Shown here one piece after another: positions 9,801-23,100 of a stretch of 64,000 bases of DNA. A program made the position numbers and the translations under genes. Numbering within the stretch: the first letter of the stretch is position 1; each line of letters starts with the position of its first letter. The stretch covers positions 2,300,179-2,364,178 of the forward strand of contig NW_006767433.1 in assembly GCF_000264995.1 (NCBI RefSeq). The letters are read 5' to 3'. Below the pieces are notes generated by a model. The model did not search any database and had not been told where the DNA came from. It was given only the letters and a program-made list of their open reading frames with translations. The DNA comes from Punctularia strigosozonata HHB-11173 SS5 (Eukaryota; Basidiomycota; Agaricomycetes; Corticiales; Punctulariaceae).

Positions 9801-12800
9801 ATGCCTGCCCCGCGAGTTGGGACCCATGCGCTGGTCGTCGTCGTCGTCGCCGCCGCCGTTCTTCCTGCTTTGACGCGTGTAGCTTACTACCCTGTCGTTC
9901 TACTCGTCTTCCTGCCGCTCTTCTTGGCCCTACTCTGCATCACCCACTTCGCCGGCTATGTCCTGTTGGCTAACCATCTCGACGCCAAGTACCACGAAGG
10001 AGCCAACCGCTCGCTACGTGCTGCCCGACCTCTTGCCTTCTCGACGCCTGCGGCGTGGCAGGCAGTGTTGACGCGGTCGCAATGGCACAAATCCCCCCAA
10101 TCATTCACGCATCTCGTCCCGCAATATCCCACCGTCTCCGCCATCCTAAACGAGATCCTGATCATGATAGTCCGAGACTTCGTCTTGACGTGGTACAAGG
10201 ACATATCCTCTTCTCCCTCCTTTCCCACCGCAGTTTCCTCTACACTGCATAGCTCTATGGAACGTCTCCTTGACCGCACGACGAACATCGATCTCCCAGT
10301 GCTCATCGTAAAGCGCGTCCTCCCAAAAATAACGACACACCTCGAACAATTCCGGCAGTCGGAAACGACCCTTCGTGGCGCAGGGCTGGAGCGCAGGCTG
10401 ACCCAGTCCGAGGAGCTGGACTTGCTTCTGGCCAGTCGATACGCAAGCAGAGGAGCGAAGCTGCATCCCGCGGTAAATAACCTGTCGTCCACCTTCACAC
10501 GACAATCAGAGGAGGAGCATCTGCGGAAGCTAGTTGACAAAGTACTGCCATTGATCCTGCCGGAGAACGAGGCTCGCAGTGCCGCCGTCAAGATTGTGGC
10601 GCGCGAGATAGTGGCATGCTCTGTGCTGTACCCCGTTGTCGACATGTTGTCCGATCCCGATTTCTGGAATCGTACCATAGACCAGGTCGCAGGTGCCGCC
10701 ATTCAGCAGCAGAAGTTGGTATCGCGGGTACGCAACGTCCTGGAAGCCCAATCACCGGGGCAGCCTTCCTCGGACGTTTCTCCAGCAACTTTGGCGCCGG
10801 AGGCCATCACCATCAATACCGATCCTCGTCACTTCGATGCGTTTCTGCGCAGCATCAGTCGTTGCTCGTCCTTGCTGGATGCTAGGCGCCTGAAGAACGA
10901 CATTGTTGGCGAGATACGAAGGACGCGCGCCTTGCTAGGTTTGTCCAGTTACTTGTTGCAGTCAGATTCCGAGCCGAGTCTCATGAATTATAGCAAACCA
11001 CGAGAACGAAGAATGGATTAACGGCAAAAAAACTGAAGATATAATATCGTTCCTTGACCGTTTGTACACTGCCCGGCGCAAGGTAGAGAAGCGGATATCA
11101 ATACTAGGTGGTGGAGAGCAAGAAACGGTACATTTGTTTATTTATGCGGCTTGCTCGTCTTCGATCCTGACACGGTCCAACAGGTGGCCGTAAATTCAGA
11201 TGCAGACTCGGAGAGCACTCAAAGCCTGAGTCTACGTGACGTACTGTCGAATCCGAGCTCGCTGTCGTATTTCATGGAGTTCATGGACCGCAGGCACCGC
11301 TCCCTACTCGTACAATTCTGGTTAACGGTGGAAAGCTTCAAGGATCCGCTCGAAACTGTGGATTCTTCTTCGTCCGGTGACGAAGATGAACTGCTGCAGG
11401 CGCCCGCTGATGCAGTTACGGTCAGAGAAGACATCTCCATGATCTATGACCTATACTTCTCTTCCTCGACTCCTCCTGCTGCGTTGTCCAATATCTCCCG
11501 CAAGTATATAAACGCGATCCGCGAATTCGCGACCGGCGAGCAATCATCCTCACCTATCGTGGAAAGGAAGGTACGGCGCAGTGTACTGCTGGCCCAAAAA
11601 CAAGCGGAGCAGGAGATGGAACACGACTTCGGTGACTTCCGGCAATCAGAGCTGTGGTTTCGAGTGGTAGGAGATTCTGGGATGCCGCTATCCGCGGCGA
11701 GACAGAAGCAGTCTCGGTCGTCACCCACCTCACCCAAACTCGCTCGAACATCCTCGGGGGATGCAAGGGGGTTCATGCCGGCTGCCAGTCTAGTTTCGCG
11801 GGCAGATTCCACATCCAGTTTGGCCTCCGGCACACCTACCCCATCATGGGCGCTGGGATCTTCCCACTCTTCAACTTCCGAGCCTTTCCCAGCTGCGATA
11901 TCTTCCCGACCAGCCACCTCGAACTTAGCGCTTCTCATGTCATCCGATGCAGGGTCTCTGGCGAGTCTGCGCACGCCCGGGTCCAACAATGCCGACATAC
12001 TCAGCCGCTTGTCGGGTCAGACGTTGGATCATGACATCCAGCATCGATGGTCCGAAGAACATATCGTCGATGCTATCGGTTACTGACTTGTAGACGCTGC
12101 GGACGAGGTTTTGCCCGGGGAAATTGGGCAAGGTTCGGCCTCGAGGCGGTTCAGAGGCAAGGAATGGGGAGTCGCGGGAGAGGAATGCACGTAATTCAGC
12201 GCTTTCGCAGACAGCAGGAATGGCTACGAGACCCTGAAAGGATGCATTAGCTACGACGCTGCAGAAAAGCAAGGAGTATGGCACATCATCACCTGCATGT
12301 ACTTCTCTAATGCCTGTCGTCGGATATCGACAAAGCTTCCAGACAGCGACGTGACAAGTCGTTTGCCAGGGAAGTCGAGGTTTCTGACCGAAGCATAACG
12401 CTCGCGGAGCTTGTTATGCATGCTGAGGAACTCATTGTACCTGCGAGCGACGACCCAACCAGAAGCAAAACCACCGTCTGGAGCAAGTTGCTGGACTTCG
12501 ATGAGGTACCGCACCACGCTTCTTCCGTTCTCTTCACCCACGGTGGAATTTACGATTGCCACCTTTGTGCGGTCCGAAAGGAGGCGATTTGCGTTTTCCT
12601 GCTGCTCATACTGAGTCTTCTGAAAGGTTAACTCCCGAAGCTCGCGATCGAGGGAAGCCTTGGACTGGCGGAGGAGCCTGAGCTCCTGAGCGTCGCCTGT
12701 CAACTCGGCTTTCTTGATCAACGTATTGAGCATACCATCTTGTGACTGAAGGTTATTGATCTTATCGGTCAAGCGGGATATGTCATAAGATAACTGAAGA

Positions 12801-13838
12801 TCTCCTGGCGCCGCTAGCTTGAAGGATCCGACTTCTTTGTCTTCAAGGCCGAGAGTGTCTTCTTCCTCGGAGTGAACTTCGTCCTCGAACAAAACGCGCC
12901 GTTTCGGTCGGGAACCAGCAAATGGTTTGTTGGATTGAACATCAGGCTCCGGTATCGTAGAACTTTGCGATGCAGCGGGATTTGAGTTACCCGTCTCACG
13001 CTGCTCGAGGATGATGTCCGTCAACGCATGTTGTATGGCTGCGATACGCTGTTGCTGTGCCTCGTCTGGAGCGAGTATCTTTGATTCGTCGAATTCGTCG
13101 AACAAAGAGTTACGGACGAAGACCTGGTCGCGAACGCGCTCAAGGCGTCTGGCAAAGCATCTTCAGAAGATGCATTATCCAAGATGTCCGGAGACCTTCG
13201 ACCTCTCGATGGCGAGACAAGCAGTTCCACGTTTTCTTCCCCTATCTGCGATTTACTCTTAGCGCTGTTCGAACTCGACGAGAAGAAGAACTGGCTCAGA
13301 CGGCAAGCGATCGTCATCATCCTGCAGCAGGTACTCGGCGGTACCATCGAACGGTGAGCCTCTACCGAGATTTTCCGACCCCTGTCATCAAATGAGTCAT
13401 GATATAGGAAAGTGAAGGAAGGTGTCAAATCAGTGCTCGACGAGACCCATGTCATGCTTTTCCTCAACTCTTTCCGGGATAATCTCTGGCCGCAAGGCAA
13501 GCTGAAAACCCCTGTAGCTCCGCGGTCTACCGAGGAGAAAAATCGCACTCGGGATGAAGCAAACAGGAAGCTGTCCGCTCTGATGCCAGGTGAGAATCAA
13601 CCGCGTCGGTCAGAATCGACTTCTGATCCATCGAAGATCTCGCGGCAAACGTCATCGGGAGATCGAATGCCAGACGAGGCGCGCGCCGTATCTTTGCAGC
13701 ATTGCAAAATCGACGGCTTAATCAACATATCATATACACAATCATAGACGAGGTGAATAATGAGTGATTCCGGCTGACGGTCACTCATCACGGATGCCAC
13801 AGGTCTTTAATGCGCTTTTCCCTGATACCCCAATATGA
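9801..13838 (+). CDS. MDM1: Mdm1/SNX14-type sorting nexin (TM-PXA-RGS-PX-nexin C), disrupted by an internal inversion
   Basis: Role: ER-anchored lipid-binding tether; yeast Mdm1 sits at nucleus-vacuole and lipid-droplet contacts. Seen on +: two N-terminal membrane segments (residues about 9-50), a PXA domain through ~10,930, short linking exons, an RGS domain (~11,200-11,650, FMEFMDRRHRSLLVQFWLTV) and a Ser-rich linker to ~11,977. The PX domain and downstream linker lie reversed at 11978-13106. The + reading resumes at ~13107 (VTDEDLVANALKA) and continues through the nexin C domain (FELDEKKNWLRRQAIVIILQ; RGARRIFAALQNRRLNQHII), ending at TGA 13836-13838. All exon joins outside the inverted block are intact. 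As written, translation would enter the reversed DNA and stop at 12084-12086, losing PX and nexin C. ATG 9801 was chosen because earlier in-frame ATGs fall in or near the 5' end of the divergent Oac1 gene. Confidence 0.85.
11978..13106 (-). other. Inverted internal block of the Mdm1-like gene (PX domain segment)
   Basis: The minus strand of this block encodes, without any stop and with its own intact introns, the middle of an Mdm1 protein: LFDEFDESKILAP, a coiled coil, the PX core (RYLIEVQQLAPDGG, WVVARRYNEFLSMHNKLRER, NLDFPGKRLV), then FLSRDSPFL, SVTDSIDDMFFGPSML and AAEYVGIVGPG. Reversing the block joins SLRTP to LFDEFDE on the left and GIVGPG to VTDEDLVANALKA on the right, both in frame. 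The cut points can slide by one or two bases without changing this. No flanking inverted repeat is visible. Confidence 0.85.
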
Positions 13839-13916
13839 TTCATGTATACCTGCATATTTTGCTCGGAATGATAGAATCAACATATCTGGTGGAACTGTAC
13901 AGTACATTACGTGTCA

Positions 13917-15867
13917 TTATCTATCTTGTATGTCCGCAGCTGAGACGGATAGTGAATGCGCCTGGAAAGCGGTGTTGGATCCTTCACTCAGAGGTGTTCC
14001 TGACCTTGAAGACTCGGTAGTGATTTCTTCAAGCACCTTCACTCTTTTGTTCTTCACGCGATAGGCCATGATGGAATTCGCTGACGGGTCGTCGTATCTA
14101 CCCACGACCGTAAGGTGAGGTTATCAGGCGCACAATGATGCACATACACTTTGATTGTATGTAACAAAAAACCGCCTGATCCGGACGTAGTCATGAATGG
14201 ATGAGTTCGGCCAGGAAGTACCTGATCAGCCTCGTGAGCGCACACCTACGAAGAAAAGCGGAAGTTGACATACCTGATAACGGCGTGTCCAGCTCTCGGA
14301 CACGGTAGGTCCCAAGTATTGTGGCTTTCCGCGTAGCTCGCCTTGGAGGTCCGCTAAAATCTGATTCACGATGTGAATCAACCGAAGTCACTTATCGAGA
14401 ATGTACAAGATCACTAACCTGCATGTAAGGGTTATGAACCACTATAGACGCCGAGCCAGCTAGATATGGCGAGAGCTTGTCCATGATCGACAGCGGATCG
14501 TATTCGCTCGCTACCAGAAGTCTGGATATTTTAAATCGAAGAAGTCGCTGTTAAGCGTCAAATAGACTTACCCATCAAAACCACCTGCATATAGCTCTTC
14601 ACGAAGGCCTTGGAGCGTATCGGCAGCAGCTTTCCGCTTATTCAGGCGCGATTTTTGCTTCTCAGATTTGGCCTGGCTCGCATGATCCTCAGAAGCCACT
14701 GCAAAAGGTGTCGGCTCACGCAATGTGAGTAACGGTGGATTGACGGCGAAACGCGTACCTGGAATGTAATCTTCTTCGAGAGTTAACCAGTTCAGCGAGG
14801 ATATGACAGAGTCAAGGACATTTTTGGGATAATTCATGTGGGTCAAGACGGGGTAGGTAGGCGGAGAATCGACATCACAGATTGTGAATATTCGACCGCT
14901 AGCTGTAACGCATGGTTAGTGGCGATCGAACGATGAGGAGCTCCACAACATACCTCCGATACGATCCAGCACTGCAGAAACGACCATACCACCTGCATCG
15001 TCCACGACAAGGTACCGACCATCCGGACGTATATTGCATAGCGTAATCATTTGGGACAATGTATCTATACGGATTTCGCGGGTTCGAGTCTTGTCCTTGG
15101 CAAACCAGTATTCGCAGATATTGAATAAGGTCGGCTCCACGACAGTAAAATATTTGCCGTATCTACGGTGTTTCAATTTCACGGCGCGTTGCTGAGTGAA
15201 GGTACGACTTACTTGGCCTCCTTGCGTTTCTTGTACTTCTCCTTGCTGTATTCCGTTTTCAAAGCATACGTAGCGTGCATCTCTACTTGTTTCTTGATTA
15301 TTTCCTGCGGAGACATTTTATCAGATTGTTTGAGTGGCGACATCCATATATGGTGGATATTCATACGATACCGATGCATGAACACCAGATTTTTTCAATG
15401 TGTCTATCTCCTCGGATGTTAGAGGTTGCACGAATTGTCCATCGTTGATGAGTTCGTTAGTTGCCTCCGTATCCTCTTCCTGCGATATGAGAGCGAATCA
15501 AGAAACGTGGGCGGAGCTGAACCAACCGAGATCTTGTATTGTCGGGGGTCTCATGAGTTTCAATTTCTTGTTGTCGATTTCGAACGACAGCCCATAACTT
15601 TGCCCAATAAGCTCATTCGCCGCGAACGAACCAAATCTTCCGAGACTGATATTACTGGGCGGCGAACGTTCGACGAGAAGACGAGCAGACAAATGAGACG
15701 AATACCTACCTGTGCCCGTCGAGTTTGATACTTCGGACCTCGCCATTGGGCAGTCGCAACAGCGTCGTGTGTCCTGGCTCGATGAGATCACTCCTCGCGT
15801 GTGAGAGTTGTGCAGATTCCGCTTGTCCTGAAAAGCTGGCAGATACGTGGCTTCCTGTTGCGTTCAT
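13917..15867 (-). CDS. TRM6: tRNA (adenine-58-N1)-methyltransferase non-catalytic subunit Trm6
   Basis: Role: with the catalytic subunit Trm61 it forms the nuclear m1A58 tRNA methyltransferase; Trm6 binds tRNA. Seen in order: ATG 15865-15867, then LIEPGHTTLLRLPNGEVRSI, FGSFAANELIGQSYGLSFEI, KYFTVVEPTLFNICEYWFAK, CNIRPDGRYLVVDDAGG, LDSVISSLNWLTLEEDYIPG, LPGRTHPFMTTSGSGG. The last exon begins with IKVYDDPSANSIMAYRVKN and ends at TAA 13917-13919. The degenerate methyltransferase fold and the TTSG.GG C-terminal motif match the family. Multiple introns. Its ATG lies 89 bp from that of the divergent She4 gene. Confidence 0.88.
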
Positions 15868-15956
15868 CAGTTGACAATCCTAGTCTGCCGGTAGCTGAGT
15901 TGGGCCGTGAAGCAAAAAGCGACCGCGTTGAGGGTTCTCACGGGTGCCTGTTCGCT

Positions 15957-18017
15957 ATGAGCCATGACCAGGAACTCGACGCTCTGCTCCAGCGTTCCGC
16001 TGAGAAATCGTTGAAATCGCTCAATGAGGAGGAAACTGCATGCTTAGTGTCGTCTTTTCTGCCATCTCATCCTCCTGCCGCTCGTTCAAAGGCATACTTA
16101 ATCCTTTCTTCCTTCTGTCAGGCAGTGCGCTCAGCATACCAGACTACCACTCAATCCGAGTCGGACCCTGCAGCTGCCTCGATTGCCCGCTCATTCTCCT
16201 CGCATGTACTCGAGAAACTGTCTGGAGCGAACGAATATGACACCCTCGCGTCTATCTCATTCCTGATTGCCTTATATCAGGTGGATTGGCAGGCGGCCAC
16301 GTCCATCCTTTCTAGGGATGGTATTATCGACGCTGTCATGGATGCTCTAGATTTATTCTCGTCGTCGAAGGCTATAAACCTAGCCCTTGCGCATCTCCTC
16401 TCCCAGGCTAGCGGTCATACAACGGCGCGAGCCATGCTTCCGTCACAGTGTTCCGAGTGGCTGGTCGCGAAATCTTCGCAGAAGACCGATCCTGCCCTGC
16501 GTGCGGCTGCTGTCGTGGCGCTCGTCAAACTTTCGCGAGCAGAAAGCTCTGATGCTTCCGCAACCAAACCGGCTGAAGGCGTCGCTACTGATGACGAGCT
16601 GGCGAACTTGATGAAGGATCTTCTCCTCGAAGGAAAGGACGAATCTTCAGTGGCCGATGCTATCGAAGGCCTTGCGTACACAAGTACCGATCCTCGAGTG
16701 AAAGAATCGTTGTCCCAGGATGAGCCATTCCTACGGCGACTGTTTTCTCTCGTGCCGAAGCGACAAAAATCCATTTTGCAGGGTCTTCAGGAGGATCGAA
16801 ATACGGCAGTCCTGTACGGCATCGTCATTATAATTGCCAATATATGCGGCTATCGTCCACGTATCAGCAAGGAGCAGGCGCAAGTGGAGAGGTTGAAGAG
16901 AATGACGAAGACCGGTGCCTCACGATCGGGCAAGTTGGTCGATCCTGGCTCAGATCCTCTTGAGGATGACACTCGCGTAAAGGAGAGGGGAAGCCGAATC
17001 GTCAAACTCGGTGCCATCGACGCTCTAGTGTCGGCAGCGAGAGGTGTCGACAGTCGAGGTGTTCGAGTTGGAGTGGCAAATGCCCTGTTAAGCTTGGTCG
17101 AAGACAGGGAAAACCGGGGAAGGGCGCTGCAAAGTGGTGCAGCGAAGACCCTAATGGCTATCATGCGCGCATCACCAGCGCTCGTGGGGGATACCAAATC
17201 ATCCGTGGATCCAGCGGATCTGCTTGCAGTACAAGCATTAGCCAAATTGGCCATAACGTCTTCTCCGATACAAGTCTTTGGACCCGACCCAGGAGTCATG
17301 TACGACACCATACGCCCCTTTTCTATCCTTCTCATGTCGTCATCATCAAATCTGCTTCAACGTTTTGAAGCACTCATGGCCCTCACGAACATTGCATCAC
17401 ATGGACCTGAAGCATGCTCCCGCATCGCGAAGACGGATGGATTGATGAACAAGGTTGAACTTTTGCTGCTGGAGGATCATGAAATGGTTAGAAGAGCTGC
17501 TACAGAGCTTCTTTGCAACCTTGTCGCGGGTTCTGAAGAAGCCTTCGAGCGATACTCTAGTGAGAATGGCGCGAAGTCCAGGCTGCACATCCTCGTGGCG
17601 CTGGCGGATGTAGAGGATCTGCCTACGAGGATGGCCGCGTCTGGAGCACTCGCGGCTCTGACATCGTCACCGAACACATGCCGCACACTCATGGAGCTGC
17701 AGCGGGAAAGACATAGCATGCTCTCTATCGTCGCGCAGTTGATTGACCCGTCAGTGGGCGTAGCTGGCGATGACAATACGGAACCCCGAAACCCTGCCCT
17801 TGTTCACCGCGGCGTCGTCTGGGCAAGAAATATCTGGGCTGGTTGCCCGGAAACTGATGCACGCAAGGATCTCGTCAAGGAAGCGGAGGCGTCGGGCCTT
17901 GTCCGGGCACTGACCGGCTTAGTGAGGGATGCGCCGAAGGTGGATCCCGCGATTCTTCAACCAACAGCCGAGCTGCTAAGGCTGCTGGTGGGCTCGGGAA
18001 TCGATATCAAGTTTTGA
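15957..18017 (+). CDS. SHE4: UNC-45/Cro1/She4-type myosin chaperone
   Basis: Role: cytosolic armadillo-repeat chaperone that folds and stabilises myosin motor heads (She4 in budding yeast, Rng3 in fission yeast). Seen: one intronless 686-residue frame from ATG 15957 (MSHDQELDALLQRSAEKSL), made almost wholly of helical repeats. Its C-terminal half contains VKLGAIDALVSAARGVDSRG, LLQRFEALMALTNIASHGPE and HEMVRRAATELLCNLVAGSE, typical of the UCS domain. No TPR domain is present, as in She4. An upstream in-frame extension to 15801 is rejected because it overlaps the Trm6 5' exon. It lies 202 bp upstream of a class I myosin gene on the same strand. The absence of introns stands out among intron-rich neighbours. 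Confidence 0.88.
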   Translation: MSHDQELDALLQRSAEKSLKSLNEEETACLVSSFLPSHPPAARSKAYLILSSFCQAVRSAYQTTTQSESDPAAASIARSFSSHVLEKLSGANEYDTLASISFLIALYQVDWQAATSILSRDGIIDAVMDALDLFSSSKAINLALAHLLSQASGHTTARAMLPSQCSEWLVAKSSQKTDPALRAAAVVALVKLSRAESSDASATKPAEGVATDDELANLMKDLLLEGKDESSVADAIEGLAYTSTDPRVKESLSQDEPFLRRLFSLVPKRQKSILQGLQEDRNTAVLYGIVIIIANICGYRPRISKEQAQVERLKRMTKTGASRSGKLVDPGSDPLEDDTRVKERGSRIVKLGAIDALVSAARGVDSRGVRVGVANALLSLVEDRENRGRALQSGAAKTLMAIMRASPALVGDTKSSVDPADLLAVQALAKLAITSSPIQVFGPDPGVMYDTIRPFSILLMSSSSNLLQRFEALMALTNIASHGPEACSRIAKTDGLMNKVELLLLEDHEMVRRAATELLCNLVAGSEEAFERYSSENGAKSRLHILVALADVEDLPTRMAASGALAALTSSPNTCRTLMELQRERHSMLSIVAQLIDPSVGVAGDDNTEPRNPALVHRGVVWARNIWAGCPETDARKDLVKEAEASGLVRALTGLVRDAPKVDPAILQPTAELLRLLVGSGIDIKF

Positions 18018-18219
18018 ACCTGAACGTATATGGTTTGGGACAAGTTGTAGTGATGACCATAGTTCGAACATGTATGGCTATATTTGTGCAGCAATAGCAA
18101 TCGTTGGACACCAGCTGCCGCCGTCCATGAGGTCACAGCCACGCGGCGCACAGCGTGCAACACGCAGCCAAGCCTCGTCTTGAACACAGCCAAATCGCTA
18201 TTCCCAATCCACGTCCGAG

Positions 18220-21200
18220 ATGGTTAGCAGACCCCATTCAACTCGCGAATAATGGCTGAGTACATACGTTCAGGCTATCTCGAAGAAGGCAGGGAAGAAG
18301 CCTGTGGCGAAGAAGGCCGGGGGAGGTCCTGGAAAGGTGGCCAAGGTGCGCAATCGGTAGATGGTCAACACTGCGAGGAGCTCACGAGACACCAATCAGG
18401 CGGACTGGAAGGAAGGATTCAAGAAGAAACAAGTCGGTGTATCGGACATGACCTTGTTGACGACGATCAGCAATGAAAGCATCAACGAGAACCTGCAGAA
18501 ACGCTGGAAGAGTGGGGAGATTTATACATATATTGGCCCCGTCCTCATCTCCGTCAACCCATTTCGAGGTGCGCAGTAACAAAGATGCCGGAACCCGATG
18601 AAATACTCATGATCATCGTTCAGATCTTGGTATCTACACCGATGAGGTCCTTCAACGATACAGAGGCAAAAACAGGCTTGAGGTTCCACCTCACGTCTTC
18701 AGCATTGCTGAGGGTGCCTACTACAACATGAAGGCGTATCATGAGAACCAATGCGTGATCATCTCTGGAGAATCCGGGGCGGGCAAGACGGAAGCAGCGA
18801 AGCGAATCATGCAATACGTTGCTGCTGTATCCGGTGGAGAGGACAGTGGGATCCAACAGATCAAGGACATGGTTCTTGCAACGAATCCGCTCCTGGAGAG
18901 CTTTGGATGTGCTAAAACGCTGCGCAATAACAATTCCAGTCGCCATGTGCGTGCGCGTAATGCACCATGTCCTCATAACTGATGTATCCTCCACAGGGAA
19001 AGTACCTTGAGATCATGTTCAACAGTCAAGGGGAACCTGTCGGAGCACAAATCACCAACTACCTGCTCGAAAAGGGCCGCGTCGTCGGACAGGTGCAGGA
19101 CGAACGCAACTTCCACATCTTCTACCAGTTCACGAAGGCTGCATCGAGTGCGCAAAGGGGTACGTACTTGCTGCTTGCGTTCGATTGTGATAGAGTATTC
19201 ATGTTGCGCATGGCAGATGAGTTCGGCCTTCAGGGCCCCGACGCGTATGCGTACACTAGCTTGAGTAATTGTTTAGAAGTGGAGGGCATAAATGATGAGC
19301 ACGATTTCACCGAAACCCTAGTATGTATCAGCCATACCTCTTTCGTGTCGTATCTTACATGTCTACAGAACGCGATGCAAGTCATCGGTTTGACAGCTGA
19401 AGAACAAAACGATATTTTCCGCATGCTTGCCATCGTGCTTTGGCTGGGAAATGTTCAGTATACCGAAGGCGATGACGGCAACGCAGTAATTGCGGATACT
19501 TCAGTCACGGATTTCATCGCGTATCTCATGGAGGTCGATGGTGCACTGGTTCAGAAGGTGATGACGACGAAAGTTGTCGAGACTCAACGCGGAGGGAGAC
19601 GTGGTTCTGTCTACGACGTCCCATTGAATCCAGCCCAGGCTTCAGCAGGGCGCGATGCACTGGCCAAAGCCGTTTACAATAATCTATTCGAATGGATAGT
19701 TTCGAGGATCAACATCTCAATGAAAGCTCGCGGGGGTGTTGCTCAGCTGATTGGCATCCTGGTGAGTTGCACTATCCATGCCTAATCCATGCAACTGTTG
19801 TTTACGGTCCATTCTCTCCAGGATATCTTTGGCTTTGAGATCTTTGAGGTCAGTTGAACCCATCTGAATCCTAAGGCAAGTGTGCTGAGCACAAGCGAGC
19901 AGGAAAACTCCTTCGAGCAATTATGCATCAACTACGTCAACGAGAAGTTGCAGCAAATCTTCATTGAGCTCACGTTGAAAGCGGAACAGGAAGAGTATGT
20001 GCAAGAGCAGATCAAGTGGACTCCCATCAAGTACTTCAACAACAAGATCGTGTGCGATCTCATAGAGGAACGACGACCTGCTGGAATTTTTGCCACGCTC
20101 AACGACGCCTGTGCCACTGCTCATGCGGATCCTACCGCCGCTGATAACAGCTTCATCCAGCGGTCAAGTATGCTTTCCAGTAACCCACACTTCGAGTCGC
20201 GTGGAACCAAATTCCTTGTCAGGCATTACGCCGGTGACGTGATGTACAACGTGGCTGGAATGACGGACAAGAACAAGGATGCGCTGGTGAAGGACCTCTT
20301 GGACCTGATTGGAACCAGCGGAAATCAGTTTCTGCAAGGTTTGTTCCCTGACCGTCCCGATCCCAACAGCAAGAAGCGTCCACCTACTGCGGGTGATAGG
20401 ATCAAGGCAAGTCGGCCTTAAAACGCCTTCTTATCTCATCTCAAGTACGCAACTGCAGGCCTCCGCGGGCGCTCTGGTCGAAAACCTCATGCGCTGCCAG
20501 CCGTCATACATTCGCACGATCAAGCCGAACCAAAACCGAAGCTCTACGGAATATGACTCGCCCGCAGTTTTGCATCAGATCAAATACCTCGGATTACAGG
20601 AGAACATTCGCGTGCGGAGAGCGGGTTTCGCCTACAGGAACACGTTCGAGAAAATGATTGAGAGATTCTACCTTCTGTCTCCGGCTACTTCCTATGCCGG
20701 CGACTATATCTGGCAAGGCGACGCGAAATCCGGTTGTGAGCAGATCCTGAAGGATACGGGCATAGCTAGAGATGAGTGGCAGATGGGCGTTACAAAGGCG
20801 TTCATCAAGAATCCCGAAACTGTGAGGACTGCTCCTCAAGCTCAATGGTCATCGCCTGACTCCATCACCAGCTTTTCGCCCTTGAAACGATGCGCGACCG
20901 ATATTGGCATAATATGGCAGGTCGCATTCAACGGGCATGGAAAAATTACATGCGTTACAAGCACGAATGCGCCCGACGCATACAACGATTCTGGAAGAAC
21001 AACAAGGAGTCCATCGAGTACGCCAAGAAGAGGGACTATGGCCATCAAATCCTTGCGGGTCGCAAGGAGCGCAGGCGCTTCAGTCTTCTTGGTTATCGCC
21101 GATTCATGGGAGACTACCTTGATGTTAATGGCAAGAGTGATCTTGGCGCAGAGCTCCACGACGTATGCGGTCTCGGTTGTGAGTGGCGCTTCTAACTGCG

Positions 21201-22861
21201 CATCAGTTTGCCTAAGGATATTATAATAGCCGAGTCGGTGGAGTTTAGCTCCCGAGCGCAAGAACTTGTTTCTAAGCTGGGTCGTTCCAGTAAACCAAGC
21301 CCTCGCTACCTCATTGTAGTGAGTTCTGTGCATACCTTGCGCAGCATTTCCCTAAGCTCGAGATGCAGACGCAAAAAGCCGTGTACATTGCGGTGACTAA
21401 CTCCACGAAGGAGGGCGGCATCATCACAAGTCTAGAGCGCAAGATACCCTTGATCACTATCAAGAGTATCGCTGTGTCTAATCTTCGTGATGACTGGCTG
21501 GTGAGTGCTCTAATCGTCCCGATAATCCCATACCATTAATGCCTGACCAGGCCTTAAATACGAACAATCCGGAGGAAGCGGATCCTATCATTAGCTGTTA
21601 TTTCAAGACGGAATTCTGCGCGACTTTACTCAGACTGACTCAGGCAAGCATCAATCTGGTGATAGGACCCACGTGAGTCTTGTTCGGAATGACGTTGGGC
21701 TAGACTCAGCCCCCAAATCAGCATTCAATATTCCAAGAAGAAGGGCAAATTGGCGGAAGTGAAATTCATCAAGGATGAGACTGTACCGAGAGATGACGTG
21801 TACAAGAGTCATACGGTACACGTCCCATCTGGTGAACCGCCAAGCAGTGTGTCCAAGCCCGTTCCGAAGCCGAAGCCCGGAGTAGTACGTCCGATCACTC
21901 AAGGGAAGCTCTTAAAGAAAGGCGGTCCGTCAAGTGTAAGCTCTATAGCTTCTTGTGCATGACGGTCATTCATTGGTTTGCCTCGCAGAGACCCGCGGCG
22001 TCCCGGCCGAAACCCGCGGCGCAGGCCTTACCAGGAAAGTCGGCGCCAACCGTGACCGCAAAGCCGTCAGTTGCCACGGCGGCGTCGGCGTCGGCGGTGC
22101 GTGCCCCGCCGCCGCCTCCCAGTCGAGCTGCTGCGCCTCCACCGCCGCCTGTAGAACCGGATGTGGAACGATACAAGGCTAAATTTGCCTTCGAAGGTCA
22201 AGAGGGGGAGATGTCGTTGAAGAAGGATGATGTCGTAGAACTGGTCGAGAAGGATGATAACGGGTGGTGGTTAGTGAGGAAGAATGGAGTTGAAGGTTGG
22301 GCGCCTTACAATTACCTGGAGCTGGTTCCGCCGGAAGCCAAGGCTGCTCCTCCGCCCCCGCCCCCACCTCCTGCTGCTAGAAGACAGCCACCGTCCGCGC
22401 CGTCAACGAGTGGATCTGCCAAATCCAGTGCACCGACTCCCAAAGTTGCAGTATCTATCAAGTCCCTTGCCGCAGATGTCTCAGCCAAGCCCGTGTCCGT
22501 ATTCCCTGGTATGGCACCAGCCAACGGATCGGCAACACCATGGAAGAAGCATGCCGCTGTTCCAACATCCAATGCTGCTTCGGAAGACAGTTCGCCAGCT
22601 TCTTCACGCCCCCCCAGCACATTAGGACGCGCTCCTCCGCCATTGGCGGCCAAGCCTAAACCGCCAGCTCCGCCGTTGGCATCTAAACCAGGTGCACCTA
22701 AGCCTCCAGGAAAGCCTGCTGTGCCTTCTGCCCCCAGGCCCACACCCGCCGCGCCGCCTCGGCCAGGAGGCGTTTCCAGACCGGCGGCAGCACCAGCAGG
22801 GCAAATGGACTTGGCTGCCGCCCTTGCCAGGCGTGCTCAGCGCATAGCGGAAAATGATTGA
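18220..22861 (+). CDS. MYO1: Class I myosin (motor, IQ, TH1, SH3, proline-rich tail)
   Basis: Role: actin motor of endocytic patches and hyphal polarity. Seen: the start ATG (18220-18222) is followed at once by an intron and then [14 protein letters not shown]. The motor has [13 protein letters not shown] (P-loop), NNNSSRHGKYLEI (switch I), DIFGFEIFE (switch II), [19 protein letters not shown] and SYIRTIKPN. The TEDS-site region reads [13 protein letters not shown], with a phosphorylatable Ser as expected for PAK-controlled fungal class I myosins. Next come IQ motifs ([10 protein letters not shown]), a TH1 membrane-binding domain ([20 protein letters not shown]), polyproline, an SH3 domain ([20 protein letters not shown]) and a Pro/Ala tail ending [12 protein letters not shown]. 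About 14 introns, one apparently GC-AG. All joins checked are intact. Confidence 0.93.
20407..20458 (+). other. Predicted GC-AG intron in the myosin gene
   Basis: The exon end AAG is followed by GCAAGT and the intron closes with CTGCAG. Only this pair yields the conserved [13 protein letters not shown] sequence in frame. AG|GCAAGT is the usual GC donor context. The nearby GT at 20411 shifts the frame. Confidence 0.7.
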
Positions 22862-23100
22862 TGTGCAAGACCGGCGGTTGGATTAGACTCAGAGTGTACA
22901 GATTAGCCTTTGTTGGATTGCAGTTCACGGATATCTAATTGATGATGTCATTCGTGCTCCAGCGGGAAGGCCAATGCTTCGAACGAGTGAATGGTATTAT
23001 TGACGATAAGGTCAGTGTGCCGTTCCAGAATGCATAATTGTACATATCCCGTGGTCCATGAGATGTGCCATGCCATAGGGTCTACTTAAAGCAGCGTCGA

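Follow-up and report, generated by a model that had tools for sequence, protein, structure and literature searches.

Is a gene whose middle part lies backwards between its two ends a true feature of the sequenced DNA, and what would such a layout leave of its protein? The question is raised by an SNX-RGS (Mdm1/SNX14)-type gene that spans positions 9801-13838 of the window (the whole 64,000-nucleotide stretch analysed, from Punctularia strigosozonata, a fungus akin to mushrooms and bracket fungi) on the plus strand, with the block 11978-13106 lying on the minus strand. The original prediction described an Mdm1/SNX14-type gene with an inverted middle, and Pfam bears this out, placing PXA and RGS behind a TM-like N-terminus on the plus strand, PX on the minus strand and Nexin_C on the plus strand again. 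The gene resembles the SNX-RGS or SNX-PXA-RGS-PXC family (yeast Mdm1, human SNX13/14/19/25 and the fungal protein P0001) in having a hydrophobic N-terminus, PXA, RGS, PX and Nexin_C, but unlike the members of that family it has its PX-bearing block on the opposite strand.

Exon 1 (9801-10938, plus strand) opens with the start codon and encodes an N-terminus that is hydrophobic, TM-like by eye and alignable with the N-termini of relatives, followed by PXA (PF02194, E=2.2e-53); it is open in frame and matches residues 6-380 of P0001. Exon 2 (10994-11127, plus), recognized by its continuous frame and a P0001 match, lies between GT-AG introns at 10939-10993 and 11128-11183. The left part of exon 3 (11184-11977, plus) carries RGS (PF00615, E=6e-10) and a linker that runs to the left breakpoint, beyond which the plus-strand frame reads about 35 foreign codons and then a stop (11978-12086). 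To the right of the block the gene resumes on the plus strand at 13107-13353, a stretch leading into Nexin_C that is supported by Pfam, frame and alignment with relatives. After an intron at 13354-13407, the main Nexin_C exon (13408-13589; PF08628, E=6.8e-14) is located past a stop as the DNA stands; the short piece preceding it scores under the cut-off (E=0.0015), and the domain with its neighbouring pieces reaches 75.3 bits in the genome search. A further Nexin_C exon (13637-13752), placed by frame and in part also recovered by the genome search, is enclosed by introns at 13590-13636 and 13753-13802, and the last exon (13803-13838) encodes VFNALFPDTPI and a stop ending at 13838. All introns were positioned by hand and then checked by reading frame. 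An 84-bp form of the intron at 13590 was dropped, as 13590-13636 brings the conserved C-terminus into frame.

The block itself comprises 356 codons on the minus strand, namely the rest of exon 3 (linker, coiled region and most of PX), an intron, and the next exon as far as the right breakpoint. PX is detected on the minus strand at E=1.6e-13, and P0001 matches the block twice, both times on that strand. The block's introns had been described as intact. The intactness holds, with GT-AG ends, and the plural does not: there is a single intron (12234-12292, minus), across which relatives align once it is removed. Read in its own direction between the two plus-strand parts, the block yields a protein of 1238 aa, a length as in relatives, and neither a stop nor a frameshift was seen in its frame. 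The assembly sequence is identical to the window at the gene locus. An Rfam search of the window gave 0 matches, and a similarity search among plasmids, a collection ill-suited to fungal DNA, gave none.

As PX lies on the opposite strand, it cannot stand between RGS and Nexin_C in one transcript, and no collinear transcript encodes the whole protein. The plus-strand frame stops at 12086, so that Nexin_C is lost from the product besides PX, the domain whose removal from the transcript had been predicted. One could suppose a stable new layout, in which each part acts as a gene of its own or splicing skips the block so that RGS is fused to Nexin_C, and both plus-strand parts and the block do retain open frames. 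This we consider very improbable. Within the 304-codon ORF that the block has on the minus strand, ATG is absent upstream of codon 144, and the simple motifs tried gave one donor-like site (11667; GTRNG in 11601-12086) and one acceptor-like site (13166; YAG in 13061-13200), which by arithmetic are mutually out of frame. The intron needed would measure about 1.5 kb versus 47-59 bp for the gene's six introns. Under these motifs, re-splicing around the block appears unlikely.

The breakpoints were scanned over 24 bases either side of those first proposed (49 x 49 = 2401 pairs), allowing plain inversions only, with no base gained or lost, and scoring similarity to P0241, a metagenomic relative described below, at the left join and to P0001 at the right join. 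Both joins were open in 781 of the 2401 pairs. The best pair, 11977|11978 with 13106|13107, was tied with a pair shifted by 1 bp, which gives an identical sequence owing to a 1-bp overlap at the joins. The next four pairs shown scored 2 to 5 units lower out of 291 and were symmetric shifts of 1 to 5 bp, which fixes the inversion ends to a few bases. The claim that reversing 11978-13106 restores both joins with no base added or lost is thus matched by a top-scoring pair, within a scan that would not reveal whole codons lost from or gained by the poorly conserved linker at some distance from the joins. All 11 aligned sequences have an identical R-x-P-L-F motif at the restored left join. None of the 11 has a gap across the right join, where G1046 is G in eight and A in three (P0002, P0032 and P0069) and the adjoining G1044 is invariant.

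No inverted word longer than 8 bp is common to the two ends (200 bp around each), nor does any inverted-repeat pair link them among the 25 listed of 27 found, in agreement with the reported absence of flanking inverted repeats. This bears on the suggestion of a programmed or site-specific flip acting as an on-off switch of the gene. Such a flip would fit the clean inversion and the intact block. The inverted repeats looked for at the ends were not found, however, the ends fall within ordinary codons, and the relatives examined (ten full-length proteins and P0241) all show the normal order; moreover, we know of no programmed gene-flip system in fungi. The suggestion is therefore unsupported, and we regard it as extremely improbable. 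Little more credence is given to the broader idea that the block flips in living cells, or that both orientations are held between the nuclei of a dikaryon under regulation; if true, the fungus would be switching a lipid-tether gene on and off or sharing it.

The same joins bear on whether the layout is an error of assembly, scaffolding or curation, in which a 1.1-kb piece of a normal gene was inserted backwards. Apart from the flip, nothing in the gene is damaged, either within the block or to its left and right, as an error in an intact gene would look, and the assembly holds one copy only and no second allele. Overlap-based assemblers need an overlap to join sequences, and scaffolders usually leave gaps. 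The window, however, is without any N; at the joins no base is visibly missing or added, and the ends carry no inverted repeat. Given a 1-bp overlap and no inverted word above 8 bp, an overlap assembler could not, we infer, have built these joins from reads in normal orientation, since the overlap required is absent. The near-blunt joins would thus speak against an overlap-based error, a point that the original prediction had not weighed.

The ancestral order was sought among relatives. A search with the two plus-strand parts gave 592 proteins, and among the best 120 of these the named relatives are Agaricomycetes, with lengths of 1133-1303 aa. All four domain labels occur in 115 of these 120, in a list that does not give domain order; the RGS label is absent in four (P0016, P0053, P0058 and P0103) and the PX label in one (P0065). 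In an alignment of ten full-length relatives, chosen from the same 120, with the reversed-block protein, each of the ten proved collinear, i.e., in uninverted order, at an overall identity of 60-65%.

A search with the block alone gave 329 proteins, of which the best 120 were listed. The closest relative among the matches listed is P0241, an ORF of 517 aa from a metagenome contig of 4,253 bases, which shares 83% identity with the first exon of the block. Over a comparable length, P0247 follows at 72% among the best 120 of 329; two short proteins score 80% and 75%, though on only slightly more than half of the block query. P0241 holds RGS and PX within one ORF. It matches the gene's left part at 64% over 245 gap-free residues, and its left-part and block matches adjoin, one residue apart; it covers the left join only. 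Among the matches listed, P0241 is far nearer to the gene in the window than any named species. As these relatives and P0241 carry the normal order, the order in the window is derived and the normal one ancestral. The layout in related species had been singled out as the comparison that might overturn the idea of an inversion; it favours one, as the ten full-length relatives and, at the left join, P0241 are normal.

The locus suggests an orthologous place as well. The gene order across 9801-22862 is the Mdm1-type gene, Gcd10p (minus strand), UNC-45 and myosin, and a mitochondrial carrier was also identified among the neighbours. The UNC-45 protein (15957-18014) is 100% identical to the database protein P0121. 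The Mdm1-type and UNC-45 genes carry locus tags two apart in each of the three relatives compared (HGRIS_008295/008297, D9758_002198/002196 and EWM64_g2490/g2492), and this spacing suggests that the neighbourhood from Mdm1 to UNC-45 is conserved and that the locus in the window is orthologous. The UNC-45 gene, of the myosin-chaperone family, adjoins the myosin gene, at which Myosin_TH1 scores just under the Pfam cut-off (E=3.6e-7, 30.5 bits versus 31.1).

The block is present once in the assembly (33.6 Mb, 32 contigs). A genome search for a second Nexin_C gene found none, its sole match being the locus in the window, and a search with P0001 matched this gene in eight pieces, of which the two that belong to the block lie on the minus strand. 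Two weak P0001 matches lie elsewhere, one to the PXA part (G000:C1:1428836-1429420) and one to the PX part (G000:C7:263477-263710), perhaps in other PXA and PX genes. From the single Nexin_C locus and the P0001 matches, in a search that scores the best candidates, no intact paralogue was seen, and the gene appears from these matches to be the genome's only SNX-RGS (Mdm1/SNX14-type) gene.

The single copy also weighs on one particular form of a real inversion, a standing polymorphism in which, for example, the two nuclei of a dikaryon hold different orientations and one was kept in the assembly. A polymorphism would account for the absence of decay, since function would be maintained by the other copy. 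No second copy exists in the 33.6-Mb assembly, however, and no protein near-identical to the Mdm1-type gene occurs among the matches listed (the best 120 of 592 and the best 120 of 329). A polymorphism is accordingly unlikely, though better placed than any programmed flip.

How long could the block have been turned round? The protein in the window is 60% identical to the ten relatives to the left of the block, 68% within it and 74% to the right, compared with 67, 72 and 79% for the relatives among themselves (ungapped columns in both cases). The ratio of divergence in the block to that in the flanks is 0.855 for the protein in the window and 0.853-0.946 across the ten relatives. Of the tree length, the protein in the window accounts for 0.127 in the block versus 0.137 in the flanks. 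Since the block has not diverged beyond its flanks, the inversion is not an old one; at this evolutionary distance the test would miss a recent relaxation and shows only that. No decay is visible in the block, as had been stated.

Were small flips a habit of this assembly, others might be expected nearby, and the surroundings were therefore scanned with a hexamer-based six-frame segmentation covering the window and 100 kb per side (263,822 bases of C1:2200001-2464000, 0.8% of the assembly, omitting a 178-base gap before the window). The detector was partly trained on the window and produces false positives. It called eight strand-flip triplets, one of which is the Mdm1-type block. There it put the right breakpoint at 13105/13107 and missed the left by about 230 bp, having called part of the linker (11748-12016) minus. 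Two other triplets fall in one helicase-like gene, whose minus frame runs through, and another lies within a plus-strand gene that reads through in frame. By eye from the translations, one is a pair of adjoining genes on opposite strands and one a plus-strand gene with weak flanks. Neither C1:2213823-2214578 nor C1:2276223-2277296 has a convincing gene on the strand read, and both were taken as noise. A minus call within the myosin gene (window 20960-21207) was also a false positive, as the plus frame reads through. No second convincing flipped block was thus found in the 264 kb scanned (0.8% of the genome), which likewise counts against an assembly error.

We therefore favour, at a probability of roughly 0.6, the reading that the sequenced DNA truly bears a young inversion of about 1129 bp that breaks the SNX-RGS gene. 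Counting against it, one would not often expect, a priori, to meet a newly arisen null of a conserved gene in a sequenced isolate. Most of the 1,170 intragenic variants in a study of 142 yeast assemblies were insertions, and each strain had a few inversions, those above 1 kb being counted (PMC10412453). Such scarcity of small gene-breaking inversions also lends something to an error in assembly, which we hold to be a possible but distinctly weaker explanation.

A young inversion would have begun with two double-strand breaks inside the gene, followed by end joining with the middle piece turned round, over 0-1 bp of overlap and with no repeat involved. The transcript from the normal promoter would then encode the anchor, PXA and RGS, followed by about 35 foreign residues and a stop, and PX and Nexin_C would be lost from the product. 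SNX-RGS proteins are reported to occupy contact sites that the ER makes with lipid droplets and with the vacuole or lysosome, and a joint fold of PXA and PXC (Nexin_C) round a hydrophobic pocket is predicted to form their lipid-binding core (PMC8864675). If that predicted co-fold is correct, the PXA-RGS product would be without PX and without half of the core, and the inverted gene would be expected to act as a null.

Mutation by small inversions within genes is already familiar, and the case in the window is like other intragenic loss-of-function inversions in having two breakpoints in one gene and a reversed middle. It differs from them in that no repeat flanks it and no base is visibly gained or lost. 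A literature search on microinversions in fungal genes returned nothing that appeared relevant. The case is a neat one, as no repeat, no visible base loss and no second gene of the family were found, and we consider it of modest interest. Should the layout prove to be an assembly error, it would be a clean test case for detecting gene-breaking flips in fungal assemblies. If the inversion is real, it would be an example of repeat-free inversion without visible loss. It would also be a natural knock-out, with the middle piece intact, of the one SNX-RGS gene that the searches revealed in this basidiomycete's genome, and would offer a handle on the role of an ER contact-site lipid protein in filamentous basidiomycetes.
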